Positions 17,702 to 45,697 of a DNA stretch of 45,697 nucleotides are shown here, piece after piece (positions within the stretch are counted from its first letter, which is position 1; each line of letters begins with the position of its first letter). A program made the position numbers and the translations under genes. The stretch spans positions 1 to 45,697 of the forward strand of contig DASWRM010000048.1 in the NCBI GenBank assembly GCA_036403155.1, written 5' to 3'. This stretch comes from Gaiellales bacterium. GTDB taxonomy: Bacteria > Actinomycetota > Thermoleophilia > Gaiellales > JAICJC01. A model generated the notes under the pieces. The model searched no databases. It was not told the origin of the DNA and saw nothing but the letters and a program-made list of their open reading frames with translations.

Positions 17702-19198
17702 CTACTTGCCGGTCCCGCCCGCGGCGGCGTACCGCACGATCATCTGGTCGGTCAGCCACTCGACCGGCGCATGGTCGTCCGTGAGCGGGTCATCCGCCGG
17801 GGCGACGGGTCGCAGGGCGAGCGCGTCGGCGCGCGTCGGAGTCAGGCTCGGGGGCAGCGCCTCCAGGCGCGCGAGCAGCTGATCCCGGGTCACCGGGCGC
17901 GTGAAGCCGGCGACGATCACATTGAAATCACCGACCGGCCACCGGTAGACGGAGGCGAATCGCGTGGCCATCGTCCCGCCGATGGCATCGGGCAGCCGAT
18001 CGTCACCCGGTACGCGACCGACGTTCGCCATCACCATGCCGCCCGGATGCAGGCGGCTGACCGCGAGCGACCAGAACTCCTGCGTCGTCAGGTAGAACGG
18101 TATGTACGGCTGGCGGAAGGCGTCGAGGAAGATCGCGTCGTAGCGTCCGGCGTGCTGCTCGAGGTACGTGCGCCCATCCGCCGTCGCAACGCGGACGCGC
18201 GGGTTGTCGCCCAGGCCGAAATACCGGCGGCCGGCGCTGGTCACGTCGGGATCGAGCTCGATGCCCTGGATGTCGACCGCCGGCCAGTACGTCCCATACG
18301 CGCGGCCGACCGTGCCGCCGGCATAGCCGATCATGGCCAGGCTCCGGAACGCGCCGCCGTGCAGGGCCGGAGCGAGCAGAAACTGATCCCAGTACCCGCC
18401 GGTCAACACCTGGTTCTTCCGCCAGATCGAGTGGTCGGCCCAGCCCTCGTTCAGGTGCAGGATCCGCGTGCCGTCGGACTGCTGGACGACCTGGATGAAC
18501 TGGTAGGGCGACTCGGTCTCGAACACGACGCCGTGCCCGGGCTTGACGAGGCCCGGCGGAACCAGGGCCAGGACGCCGATCGCGACGGGCGCGAGCAGGT
18601 ATCGCCGGCCGAGAGCGGGAACGGCCGTCAGCGCGAGCACGGCCGCGCTCGCCAGCATCGTGCGGCGCGTGCCGAGCGACGGGATCAGCACGACAACCGG
18701 TAGGAACGTCCCCATGATGCTCCCGGCCGTCGACAGCGCGTACATCCGCCCGGCGACCTCGCCGGCCTGCTCGACCCGGGTCACGCCCAGGCGGACGGCG
18801 AACGGGGATGCCATGCCGAGCAGGGTGATCGGCACCGAGAAGATCAGCATCGACGCAAAGAACGACCCCAGGAACGCGCCGACGGACGCGTCGGCGAAGG
18901 CCGTCACGGCACGGTCGAGCAGCGGGCTGGCGATGAACGGGGTGGCGGCGATGGCGGCAGCGGCGATCAGCATCAGCCGTGCCAGGTAGGCCATCGAGGG
19001 GTGACGGTCGGCGATCCGGCCACCGATGAAGTAGCCGGCGCAGAGGTAGATCAGGATCAGGCCGATGATGTTGGCCCAGACCAGGATGGACGCCCCGAAG
19101 AACGGCGCGAGCAGCCGCGAAGCCGACATCTCCGTCGACATGGTGGTCGCACCGGCCACGAACACCAGCGGATAGAGCAGGCGGTGACCGCTCGTCAC
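17702..19198 (-). CDS. Membrane protein with spermidine-synthase-like domain
   Basis: 498 aa. Residues 1-240 contain about seven hydrophobic helices (YPLVFVAGATTMSTEMSASR opens the first) of the type fused to spermidine-synthase-like domains. Residues about 255-495 are a Rossmann methyltransferase-like fold with IGYAGGTVGRAYG, IELDPDV, ATADGRTYL and DAIFLDAFRQPYIP. True spermidine synthases use decarboxylated AdoMet; many membrane-fused relatives have no known product, so I do not name the reaction. GTG at 19198 is chosen because TACACT ends 7 bases upstream; upstream codons in the same frame are not protein-like. Confidence 0.78.
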   Translation of the reverse strand: MTSGHRLLYPLVFVAGATTMSTEMSASRLLAPFFGASILVWANIIGLILIYLCAGYFIGGRIADRHPSMAYLARLMLIAAAAIAATPFIASPLLDRAVTAFADASVGAFLGSFFASMLIFSVPITLLGMASPFAVRLGVTRVEQAGEVAGRMYALSTAGSIMGTFLPVVVLIPSLGTRRTMLASAAVLALTAVPALGRRYLLAPVAIGVLALVPPGLVKPGHGVVFETESPYQFIQVVQQSDGTRILHLNEGWADHSIWRKNQVLTGGYWDQFLLAPALHGGAFRSLAMIGYAGGTVGRAYGTYWPAVDIQGIELDPDVTSAGRRYFGLGDNPRVRVATADGRTYLEQHAGRYDAIFLDAFRQPYIPFYLTTQEFWSLAVSRLHPGGMVMANVGRVPGDDRLPDAIGGTMATRFASVYRWPVGDFNVIVAGFTRPVTRDQLLARLEALPPSLTPTRADALALRPVAPADDPLTDDHAPVEWLTDQMIVRYAAAGGTGK

Positions 19199-19205
19199 GA
19201 CGGCG

Positions 19206-19211
19206 AGTGTA
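19206..19211 (-). promoter_or_regulatory. -10 box TACACT for the spermidine-synthase-like gene
   Basis: Minus-strand TACACT (19211-19206) ends 7 bases before the GTG at 19198, without a ribosome site. It lies in the 40-base gap after the zinc-ribbon gene stop at 19239. Confidence 0.5.
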
Positions 19212-19238
19212 GTCCCCGGTTCTCCGTGGCCGGCTGGT

Positions 19239-19457
19239 CTAGCCGCCGTTGCGGCCGGCCGAATACGTCCGGCTGAACGGCCGCCACGGAACCCGCTGCC
19301 ACGACGACCCACGGCACATCGGGCATTCGGGGAGCACCTTGTGGACGGTCACGCCGTAGCCACAACCGGCACAGCGAAACTCGCCCTTCGCTCGCGAGCC
19401 GGTCGCCCAGCCGGCGGCGTCCTCCACGACCTCGAGTCGATCCAGGCTCGACCCCAT
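19239..19457 (-). CDS. Small zinc-ribbon protein
   Basis: 72 aa. A zinc ribbon (FRCAGCGYGVTVHK then LPECPMCRGSSW) fills residues about 28-52 and resembles rubredoxin-like or ribbon domains on regulatory peptides. The tail is basic and aromatic (WRPFSRTYSAGRNGG). ATG 19457 has an AAGGGTGG ribosome site at good distance. It lies immediately upstream of the spermidine-synthase-like gene on the same strand, but that gene has its own -10 box. Function unknown. Confidence 0.65.
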   Translation of the reverse strand: MGSSLDRLEVVEDAAGWATGSRAKGEFRCAGCGYGVTVHKVLPECPMCRGSSWQRVPWRPFSRTYSAGRNGG

Positions 19458-21881: not shown

Positions 21882-21977
21882 GACCAAGTCATACCAGGCG
21901 GCCGATGCCGGCTCGTGACGCCCCCGGCACGGTCGACGTGGCAACCATCGCATCACCCAATTCTTGGAGACCAAGCC
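21882..21977. repeat. Paired GACCAAGTC element, family 2, locus 1
   Basis: GACCAAGTC at 21882-21890 and a variant GACCAAGCC at 21969-21977 lie 87 bases apart. The second follows CCCAATTCTTGGA; a CTCGTGACGC block lies between them. The same order of CTCGTGACGC, CCCAATTATTGGA and GACCAAGTC recurs at 44375-44480. No ORF or transposase is associated. Confidence 0.55.
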
Positions 21978-43470: not shown

Positions 43471-44289
43471 TCAGCGCCGGCGCGTGAGCGCCTCGTAGAT
43501 CTGGTTGCGCGGCACGCCGCTGAGCGTCGATGCGAGCGCCGCGGCGCGCTTCGAGCCGAGGGCGCCCGCAAGCTCCGAGAGGACGGCCGCGTCGGGCAGG
43601 TCGGACGGCCGCTCCTGCGCGGCGGCGAGCACCAGCGTCACCTCGCCCTTCGGCGGTTGCTCGAATGACGCCGCGAGCTCGGCGATGGTGCCGCGCTCGA
43701 CCTGCTCGTGGAGCTTCGTCAGCTCGCGGCACACAGCAGCCGTGCGTTCCGGGTCGCGCCCGGCCAGGCGCGCAAGCGTCGACGGCAAGCGCTTCGGCGA
43801 TTCGAACGCGACGATCGGCAGACGCGCGCCGTCCAGGTGGTCGAGCAGCGTCGCCAGCGCTCCGGCCGCGCGCGGGAGGAATCCGGCGAACACGTAGCCG
43901 CCGCCCGCCATGCCCGACGCGGCCAGCGCGACCGGCACAGCCGAGGCGCCTGGCAGCACGACCGGCCGGATGCCGGCGTCCAGCGCGGCGGCGATGAGGA
44001 GCGCACCGGGGTCGGAGACCGCCGGGAAGCCCGCGTCGGTCAGCAGGCAGATGCGGTCGCCCGCGGCCACGCGGCGGACGATCGCCGGGGACTGCGCGCG
44101 CTCGTTGTGCTCGTGCAGCGCGATCAGCGGCAGGTCGATGCCGTGGCGGGCGAGCAGGGTGCGGGAATGGCGCGTGTCCTCGCATGCGGCGGCGTCGGCA
44201 CGGCGCAGCTCCTCGAGCGCGCGGAGCGTGACGTCGCCGAGGTTGCCGATCGGGGTCGGGCAGACGACGAGGGCGCCGGTGTCAGCCAT
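43471..44289 (-). CDS. rsmI: 16S rRNA (C1402) ribose 2'-O-methyltransferase
   Basis: 272 aa, RsmI of the tetrapyrrole-methylase fold. Motifs: LVVCPTPIGNLGDVTLRAL, EDTRHSRTLL, LHEHNE, the AdoMet loop LLTDAGFPAVSDPG and VVLPGASAVPVALA. It modifies C1402 in the decoding centre together with RsmH. ATG 44289 has TAGAGT 7 bases upstream and no ribosome site. Confidence 0.94.
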   Translation of the reverse strand: MADTGALVVCPTPIGNLGDVTLRALEELRRADAAACEDTRHSRTLLARHGIDLPLIALHEHNERAQSPAIVRRVAAGDRICLLTDAGFPAVSDPGALLIAAALDAGIRPVVLPGASAVPVALAASGMAGGGYVFAGFLPRAAGALATLLDHLDGARLPIVAFESPKRLPSTLARLAGRDPERTAAVCRELTKLHEQVERGTIAELAASFEQPPKGEVTLVLAAAQERPSDLPDAAVLSELAGALGSKRAAALASTLSGVPRNQIYEALTRRR

Positions 44290-44296
44290 GGCGGAC

Positions 44297-44302
44297 ACTC
44301 TA
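44297..44302 (-). promoter_or_regulatory. -10 box TAGAGT for rsmI
   Basis: Minus-strand TAGAGT (44302-44297) ends 7 bases before the ATG at 44289. Leaderless start predicted. Confidence 0.5.
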
Positions 44303-44374
44303 CGAATCTCGCAGCCGGCACGCCGGTTCCGGCCGGCGCGAAGGCACACGCCGCCGACCACGCCATTCATTGGA

Positions 44375-44480
44375 GACCAAGTCGTACCGCGGGGGTGATG
44401 CGCGCTCGTGACGCAGGTGTGACGGGCGCTGGGATGGTTGAGCGGGCAGGCGGCCCAACCCAATTATTGGAGACCAAGTC
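44375..44480. repeat. Paired GACCAAGTC element, family 2, locus 2
   Basis: GACCAAGTC at 44375-44383 (after ATTCATTGGA) and again at 44472-44480 (after CCCAATTATTGGA), 97 bases apart, with CTCGTGACGC and GTGTGACG between. This matches the order and spacing of 21882-21977. It fills most of the gap between rsmI and the HNH-like gene, where apparent GC drops. Confidence 0.6.
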
Positions 44481-44514
44481 GAGGCGACTATCCCCGTACT
44501 GTAGAGAAAGGTGG

Positions 44515-44520
44515 TATAGT
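44515..44520 (+). promoter_or_regulatory. Possible plus-strand -10 box TATAGT, antisense to the HNH-like gene
   Basis: TATAGT is followed 4 and 8 bases later by two ATGs. The second encodes only 15 codons; the first stays open but only as a shadow of the gene on the other strand. GACTAT at 44486-44491 and ATAGTC at 44516-44521 form an inverted repeat. It may be a promoter for an antisense RNA, or chance. Confidence 0.25.
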
Positions 44521-44548
44521 CCACATGCATGGCAAGCAGAAAGGCGGC

Positions 44549-45328
44549 TCACTTTCCGAGATGCCGCCAGCGGTGAGTCAGCGCGAGCAGGCCAAGGTCG
44601 TCCAGCGGGACGATGGGTGGCCAGGTGACGGTGGCATCAGGTGGGCCGTCGATCTTGATGGTGCTGTCCCTCCACCGCTCCGCGACACCGGCGTCGTCAG
44701 CGATCCGGGGCCACGGCTTCCCCTCGACCGGGCGGCATATGAGGTTCTGCAGCACCGCTTGGCCGATGCTGAGGGTGCATGTGTGGCCATTGACCACCAT
44801 GACGTCTGGTGCCATGGCTTGGGCGAAGGTGATGTTCCCGCTGTAGCCCCGAGCAACCTGGAGAGATGATGAACGCTTCGCGAGCCAAAGCGTGGTGCGA
44901 TCAGGGGCGGTTCCCGATGCCGCCAATGCGGTTCGCTCGAGCTGGGTGTAGTAAGCCGGTTCCCTTGATTCCGCCTCCAGCACCATGTCGGTCATGGTGA
45001 GCCACGCGGCGAGTGCGAGTTGCCCGCCTGTCGGGATGCTGAGAGGCGTTCCCGCGATCATCGGCCCAAGGGTTGGCTGGGCGAGTTGCTGAAGGTCGCT
45101 CATCCAGCCGTTGTTACATGTCTGGCAAACGTGGTTGCGGACGGCCAGGACGATGGTGTCCTCCAGCCGGTCGGGCTGTTGGACGCCTCCATAGCGGCGA
45201 CGCTTCTTGATCCGCGCGTCGGTGGGCTTCGTCAACAGCGGCCGGATCCACTTGGGGATCGCGTCCTCTTTGCTGTCAGCGGTGTTGCCGCAGAAGATGC
45301 ACGTGCCGCGGTTCCGGCGTCTAGCCAT
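44549..45328 (-). CDS. HNH-like zinc protein, probable accessory gene
   Basis: 259 aa. N-terminal CIFCGNTADSKEDAIPKWI at about 10-28 and later NHVCQTCNNGWMSDLQ at about 66-81 form two CxxC pairs around a His/Asn-rich core, like HNH-type proteins common in phages and islands, often called HNH endonucleases. The catalytic His is uncertain. The remaining ~175 residues match nothing I know. Apparent GC and codon use are lower than in the rest of the window, which suggests transfer. ATG 45328 has a GAAAGGG ribosome site 7 bases upstream. Confidence 0.6.
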   Translation of the reverse strand: MARRRNRGTCIFCGNTADSKEDAIPKWIRPLLTKPTDARIKKRRRYGGVQQPDRLEDTIVLAVRNHVCQTCNNGWMSDLQQLAQPTLGPMIAGTPLSIPTGGQLALAAWLTMTDMVLEAESREPAYYTQLERTALAASGTAPDRTTLWLAKRSSSLQVARGYSGNITFAQAMAPDVMVVNGHTCTLSIGQAVLQNLICRPVEGKPWPRIADDAGVAERWRDSTIKIDGPPDATVTWPPIVPLDDLGLLALTHRWRHLGK

Positions 45329-45333
45329 GCGGC

Positions 45334-45339
45334 TACCCT
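45334..45339 (+). promoter_or_regulatory. -10 box TACCCT for the 45-residue gene
   Basis: TACCCT ends 6 bases before the ATG at 45346 with no ribosome site, the same leaderless layout as the chromosomal genes. It overlaps the ribosome-site region of the divergent HNH-like gene. Confidence 0.4.
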
Positions 45340-45345
45340 TTCAAC

Positions 45346-45483
45346 ATGACCGACAAGCCGCAACCGCCGGCAAAGCCGGAGCCGAAGCAGAAGACGAAGA
45401 CGGGCGCCGAGATCCCCGTCCCGAAGCGCGGCGAGTTCTACGAGAGCCTCGGCAAAGCAACCAAGCCTGATGACAGCCCCTAG
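45346..45483 (+). CDS. 45-residue basic protein, unknown function
   Basis: Lys/Pro-rich head (KPQPPAKPEPKQKTKTG) followed by a more ordered tail (EIPVPKRGEFYESLGKATK). No cysteines or membrane segment. A TACCCT box 6 bases upstream supports the start, and the neighbour genes fit around it. Divergent from the HNH-like gene. Could be an accessory-element protein; I recognise no family. Confidence 0.45.
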   Translation: MTDKPQPPAKPEPKQKTKTGAEIPVPKRGEFYESLGKATKPDDSP

Positions 45484-45513
45484 GCGGGTGTTTCCGCCGG
45501 TGACACGTCCTGG

Positions 45514-45519
45514 TATAAA
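45514..45519 (+). promoter_or_regulatory. -10 box TATAAA before the last gene
   Basis: TATAAA ends 13 bases before the ATG at 45533 and overlaps the approach to a GGAGG ribosome site. It is the box closest to the TATAAT consensus in this window together with TATAGT at 4955-4950 (minus). Confidence 0.4.
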
Positions 45520-45532
45520 GTGGAGGCCGACA

Positions 45533-45697
45533 ATGCCAACCGCCGCACCCCCACGACACCCGTCCATCTTGCTCGCCAAGGGCATTTTGAAGGCGCTCTT
45601 CACGGAGAAGCCCACGGAGACGAGCGAGGTCGTGGTTACCGCTGATGGCGACGTGGAGATCAACCCCGTCCATTACGAAGATCATGGCGAGGTTGTC
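45533..45697 (+). CDS. Hypothetical protein, N-terminal fragment
   Basis: At least 55 aa; it runs off the right edge. ATG 45533 has GGAGG about 8 bases upstream. A Pro/Ala head is followed by a helix (SILLAKGILKALFTEK) and a beta-like stretch with acidic residues (SEVVVTADGDVEINPVHYED). No family recognised. It lies 49 bases after the 45-residue gene on the same strand, in the same possible island. Confidence 0.45.
   Translation, partial: MPTAAPPRHPSILLAKGILKALFTEKPTETSEVVVTADGDVEINPVHYEDHGEVV

Follow-up and report, generated by a model that had tools for sequence, protein, structure and literature searches.

A composition border beside a direct REP-like repeat doublet coincides with the end of an IS1595-family transposon in a Gaiellales genome

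Near the end of a 45,697-nucleotide stretch of DNA from a Gaiellales bacterium, two copies of a short repeat stand where a GC-rich run of core genes gives way to sequence of lower GC content. The locus raises the question of whether the repeats and the border belong to one mobile element. A preliminary description placed the repeat cores at 44375 and 44472 and suggested that repeats in this position may be integration or recombination sites. The whole stretch analysed, hereafter the window, is the entire contig C48 of a 79-contig assembly (genome G000), so the far side of the border was sought elsewhere in the genome. The paired repeats and the composition border are two separate things stacked at one place.

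The features on the repeat side are as follows.

43471 to 44292, minus strand: rsmI, core gene on the high-GC side (Pfam TP_methylase and RsmI_C)
44363 to 44384, plus strand: left unit of the doublet (first, REP-like), with the shared exact 16-mer at 44369-44384
44435 to 44443, plus strand: spacer stretch TGGTTGAGC, at the same position in many other doublets as read by eye, unscored
44460 to 44482, plus strand: right unit of the doublet (second), into which the transposon has inserted, with the shared exact 16-mer at 44466-44481
21957 to 21977, plus strand: further member of the repeat family, its 97-bp partner not above background score

The identical 16-mers, ATTGGAGACCAAGTCG, lie on the same strand at a spacing of 97 bp and are embedded in a 32-nt repeat with 81% identity. 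Both cores named in the preliminary description fall inside these copies. With up to three mismatches the window holds four matches against 0.09 expected, a number reached in none of 100 shuffles. Judged by its neighbours, the pair sits between genes; rsmI itself gives a single match per genome in all nine genomes searched. The composition shift reported beside the repeats is present, GC content falling from 0.736 (43501-44500) to 0.640 (44501-45500) right after the second copy, and the foreign sequence begins at 44483, one base past the second 16-mer. At Rfam gathering scores, the window together with ten loci (11 sources) gave two tRNAs and no other match. An integron attC reading, based on GTTRRRY...RYYYAAC near the repeats, was weighed by eye and dropped.

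The features on the other side of the border belong to a transposon whose two ends are assembled on different contigs.

44475 to 44482, plus strand: CAAGTCGA, target duplication of 8 bp, left copy (its right counterpart is at C35:626-633)
44483 to 44507, plus strand: left terminal inverted repeat, matching the right one (C35:601-625) at 23 of 25 bases
44483 to 45697, no strand assigned: left part of the transposon (1,215 bp), truncated where the contig stops
44549 to 45328, minus strand: HNH-like passenger gene, 259 aa, named from motif reading alone
45346 to 45483, plus strand: putative small ORF within the transposon, 45 aa, divergent from the HNH-like gene
C35, 1 to 625: right 625 bp of the transposon, including the start of the transposase gene

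The GC border is the left end of this IS1595-family transposon, inserted in the second repeat unit. The left terminal repeat has no partner in an inverted-repeat scan of 44300-45697; the partner lies on C35, a contig that opens within the transposase ORF and continues with the inverted repeat (601-625), CAAGTCGA (626-633), a ROK-family gene and a LytR/CpsA/Psr gene. No contig spans the transposon and the assembly breaks inside it; with its ends on two contigs, the element measures at least 1,215 + 625 bp plus the unassembled gap. The assembled part of the transposase, its first 195 aa, matches the zinc-ribbon profile PF12760 (33.4 bits, cut-off 25.4) and, over a partial profile where the contig ends, PF12762 (DDE_Tnp_IS1595; 29.5 bits, cut-off 27). 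Among plasmid relatives of this protein, 10 of the best 15 of 303 records are named "IS1595 family transposase". By these matches, the enzyme is an IS1595-family DDE transposase. The terminal-repeat pattern (up to three mismatches, 61 genomes) occurs at two places in G000, which are the transposon's own ends; elsewhere it was found once in the sister species G001 and once, weakly (three mismatches), in G011.

Passenger genes are carried by some IS1595 elements, and the HNH-like gene appears to be one. Its protein has no Pfam match up to E 0.001 and no NCBIfam match up to E 1; against PHROGs it matches one family of unknown function (E 3.4e-5). The gene is present in three of 61 genomes, G000 included, and homologs occur in 5 of 72,556 plasmid records; the one plasmid neighbourhood examined (H16) lists no transposase. 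In G001 the matching terminal repeat is immediately followed, on its inner side, by the homolog of this gene (27% identity), and an 88%-identical transposase stretch of 83 residues lies upstream of the homolog. By eye, EDAIPKW in the window protein corresponds to EHVIPRW in that homolog, and one histidine of the supposed HNH motif may therefore be missing. The related element of the sister species (G001:C129:718-3030, L195) carries a 180-aa transposase ORF; a terminal repeat is recognisable at one end, and the other end was not found in the 6 kb read. The 45-aa small ORF at 45346-45483 is rich in proline and lysine.

Comparison with relatives places the displaced genes. The ROK gene adjoins rsmI in four of six relatives examined (G001, G009, G005 and G006), while in G002 and G004, which have no ROK match, a divergent gene begins near rsmI. 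The protein of the G002 divergent gene leads to a G000 copy at C35:1701 (66% identity; Pfam LytR/CpsA/Psr). In G000 both the ROK and the LytR/CpsA/Psr gene are displaced from rsmI onto C35, where the other border, with its inverted repeat and duplicated target, bears out the suspicion of a mobile border at the composition shift. The preliminary description had named synteny past 44.5 kb in relatives lacking the repeat as evidence to the contrary; among the relatives examined, what follows rsmI shows no synteny with the window past 44.5 kb.

Contig C49 carries a duplicate of the rsmI-ROK spacer, doublet included, at about 19073-19396 (L107, L015). At about 324 bp, this segment reaches into both genes, taking in 39 bp from the start of rsmI and a few from the end of ROK. 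It passes the insertion point uninterrupted, and both transposon flanks together align to it gap-free at the junction. The inverted repeats, the target duplication and the uninterrupted paralogous site can all be read directly from the assembled DNA, and the sequence establishes the order of events, with the doublet first and the transposon second. The C49 duplicate lies in other surroundings, and the moved segment is larger than the doublet.

Presence and absence against the sister species are evident in alignment at two loci. The rsmI and ROK matches of G001 are 14 bp apart with no doublet between them, while the host spacer in G000 measures 276 bp (44293-44482 plus C35:634-719). A block on C30 comprising a doublet and a Y1 transposase gene (L105:1679-2453) is missing in G001, where both flanks align with 19 bp between them. 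Both absences fit insertion of the doublet or block in G000, with loss in G001 as the alternative.

The pair belongs to a dispersed family. With up to three mismatches, CCAATTMTTGGAGACCAA has 57 copies in the genome and none in a reversed control, a count in which near-identical copies at contig ends may be included twice. The copies split by eye into the subfamilies GGAGACCAAGTC, GGAGTCAAAGCC, GGAGCCCGACTCC and GGAGACCAACCC. In a profile of the 57 copies, same-strand partners lie at +97 for 14 and at +98 for two, a few others being found at 63, 130, 153-154, 232 and multiples; opposite-strand partners within 500 bp number zero. Scored at 94-101 bp, a partner is clear for 28 of the 57, weak for nine and lacking for 20, and some of these 20 belong to arrays of other spacings. 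For some single copies, a diverged partner stands at roughly the usual distance; it retains the GGTGTC or GGGGTC part but not CCAATTATTGG. A four-copy array at C37:181398-181875 (L014) has spacings of 154, 153 and 153 instead of 97. Near-identical copies are borne by the contig ends C2:6, C15:45558, C70:108 and C73:6, which suggests that the assembly breaks at longer repeats of the family.

The 21-nt pattern (up to one mismatch) has no match in 60 relatives. In the genome collection, possibly without the window's own genome, an exact-pattern scan turned up 12 stretches from scattered taxa, each with a single match, which is close to chance by a rough estimate. Short self-complementary stretches (CCAAT-T-ATTGG) are present in the units; the predicted unit hairpins are no stabler than shuffles, mean z being +0.40 across 23 right units (control, -0.12) and +0.56 across 17 left units (control, -0.49). 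No GT[AG]G is conserved at the hairpin foot, where the aligned units have TTGGAG by eye.

These results speak against the repeats as integration sites. The transposon duplicated 8 bp only, CAAGTCGA, the tail of the second repeat; the doublet on C49 stands without a transposon; and the family has 57 near-matches in the genome, whereas the terminal-repeat pattern lies there only at the transposon's two ends. The matching repeat proposed for the other border did not materialise, no repeat core turning up when the first 6 kb of C35 were scanned for the motif. The transposon does not use the pair as its recombination site.

The genome has five matches to PF01797 (Y1, IS200-like). Two of these genes, C30:24454 and C37:120658, lie just downstream of a doublet, of a different subfamily each, and their 5-kb loci contain no further copy, none inverted and none downstream. 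Their proteins are 71% identical, carry THWH and YIPLNP motifs and exceed the PF01797 cut-off, scoring 63.8 and 65.7 bits with the NCBIfam REP-associated tyrosine transposase model, below its cut-off of 80, and 14.3 and 12.5 bits with the NCBIfam IS200 model (cut-off 55). The C30 protein has no match to solved structures at E up to 0.1. A third gene, C30:2525, follows a different doublet with a spacing of 109; this second family (C30:2967-3107 and others) has 18 copies, of which 14 form seven doublets, every one direct and at exactly 109 bp. The fourth gene, C49:44813, follows a 76-bp pair, and the fifth has no pair above controls. The repeat family, its fixed direct spacing and its linkage to two Y1 genes are established at the level of sequence.

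Relatives contain 86 Y1 matches. Of these, 63 were taken for a test of upstream and downstream pairs, one having too little upstream sequence, which leaves 62; a pair counted when it scored above all 536 mononucleotide-shuffled controls. An upstream direct pair accompanies 14 of the 62 genes and a downstream pair four; in the other 48, no upstream pair passes the threshold. Short-period tandem arrays account for at least two of the 14 upstream pairs (L154 and L127). The top score of the C37 gene in this test stems from another tandem repeat, its 97-bp pair having been found separately. One family in G001 has 28 sites (55 rows); six of its pairs are spaced 112-113, and further pairs 105, 128 and 162. 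Its motif is nearly palindromic, most sites are listed on both strands, and pair orientation is not readable.

The explanation that we favour, with a probability of roughly 0.8, is a REP-like direct doublet of a dispersed, Y1-linked family that was later hit by an IS1595-family transposon with an HNH-like passenger. In this account a direct doublet, with units 97 bp apart, occupies the spacer between rsmI and the ROK-family gene. Such doublets are probably copied by Y1 (HUH, IS200-like) transposases acting on single-stranded DNA, the enzymes being encoded elsewhere in the genome beside doublets of this kind. On single-stranded DNA, a Y1 dimer may bind both units of one strand, cut at each and insert the piece of about 100 nt elsewhere, the two units serving as left and right ends. 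Later, the IS1595-family DDE transposon with its HNH-like passenger entered the second unit and duplicated 8 bp. We infer the recognition and movement of the doublet by a Y1 enzyme, as well as the chemistry of both transposases, from sequence relationships. The narrower proposal that the direct doublets are miniature single-stranded-DNA transposons with same-strand ends, moved by an external Y1 enzyme of the THWH/YIPLNP type, is tentative, and we consider its chances slightly short of even.

Direct repeats at a composition border would also be expected if the pair were the duplicated attachment site of a site-specific integrase island starting at 44.48 kb. This account is very improbable, given that the far border on C35 has the 8-bp duplication only, with no repeat core in the first 6 kb, that the ends and transposase are of IS1595 type, and that the C49 doublet exists without any such island. 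Equally hard to credit is the possibility that C48 and C35 are not the two ends of one element and that the border reflects a contig mis-join or a different rearrangement. Such a reading draws on the assembly break inside the element; yet the terminal-repeat pattern gives one left and one right end in the genome, the 8-bp duplications are identical, and the joined flanks align to C49 with no gap at the junction.

An alternative of more weight, though still unlikely, takes the doublets as protein-binding or RNA-level regulatory repeats with spacing under selection, spread by recombination or segmental duplication, with the Y1 genes as mere neighbours. It is consistent with the C49 copy, which at about 324 bp with the ends of two genes is not a clean doublet transposition, with the lack of a stable hairpin, and with three of the five Y1 genes being without this 97-bp family. 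However, the second family comes with a separate Y1 gene and a different fixed spacing, and the doublet-plus-Y1 block is present in G000 and absent in G001 as one unit. The excess of upstream over downstream pairs beside the Y1 genes of relatives (14 of 62 versus four), together with the lack of Rfam matches beyond the two tRNAs, also argues for the favoured reading of Y1-linked doublets over regulatory repeats.

The end hairpins of IS200/IS605 elements lie on one strand, an arrangement that would fit a direct doublet, and a Y1 transposase is common to both systems. Here, in contrast, the gene lies outside the doublet, and its proteins match PF01797 but score far below the NCBIfam IS200 cut-off. 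The transposon is ordinary, yet it accounts for the suspected island border to the base. Like IS1595 insertion sequences, it has zinc-ribbon and DDE_Tnp_IS1595 domains, inverted ends and an 8-bp target duplication; the excerpted text of PMC8101967 gives 8-bp duplications and a zinc finger for the family, with 5'-GG stated for Merlin elements. One transposase gene is usual according to the same excerpt (PMC8101967), whereas the window element adds an HNH-like gene. Insertion into REPs has been reported for the IS3, IS110, IS4, IS256 and IS5 families (PMC1525189, in excerpt). The present case is similar in that an insertion sequence lies within a REP-like unit and differs in being IS1595 and a single case, so a preference of IS1595 for such repeats cannot be claimed.

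As in REP/RAYT systems, short dispersed repeats occur in many copies (57), the family is tied to an adjacent Y1 gene, the Y---NP motif is present, and for two Y1 genes there is one family per gene. RAYT genes are described as always flanked by two inverted REPs in the excerpted text of Nunvar 2010 (PMC2817692), whereas the doublets here are direct, upstream of the gene and never inverted, with no GTAG foot, weak hairpins and scores below the NCBIfam cut-off. According to excerpts of Quentin 2018 (PMC6006769), subclasses 2.1 and 2.3 yielded no REP, structures in 2.6 and class 3 are atypical, and some atypical REPs lack the GT[AG]G tetranucleotide. For class 2 they list L, V, I, F, Y or M at the middle position of the HUH motif, while the two G000 Y1 proteins with THWH have W. 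Within the coverage of our literature search, which left most subscription journals outside, nothing closer was found for direct REP doublets or actinobacterial RAYTs.

REPINs and BIMEs share with the present family a repeat doublet with a near-constant spacer as the repeated unit. Their doublets are inverted, at 93% of 430 REP doublets in SBW25 according to the excerpted text of Bertels and Rainey 2011 (PMC3116915), which also describes some tandem REP arrays; here, inverted partners within 500 bp number zero. If the doublets are indeed miniature single-stranded-DNA transposons, they would retain ends on one strand, as IS200/IS605 elements do and inverted REPINs do not, and would constitute a REP-like family for Y1 enzymes outside the canonical RAYTs. 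This bears on how REP sequences arise from IS200-like transposons, for which two Y1-linked families of fixed-spacing direct doublets in one genome may represent an intermediate. The system resembles REP/RAYT but breaks its described inverted arrangement.
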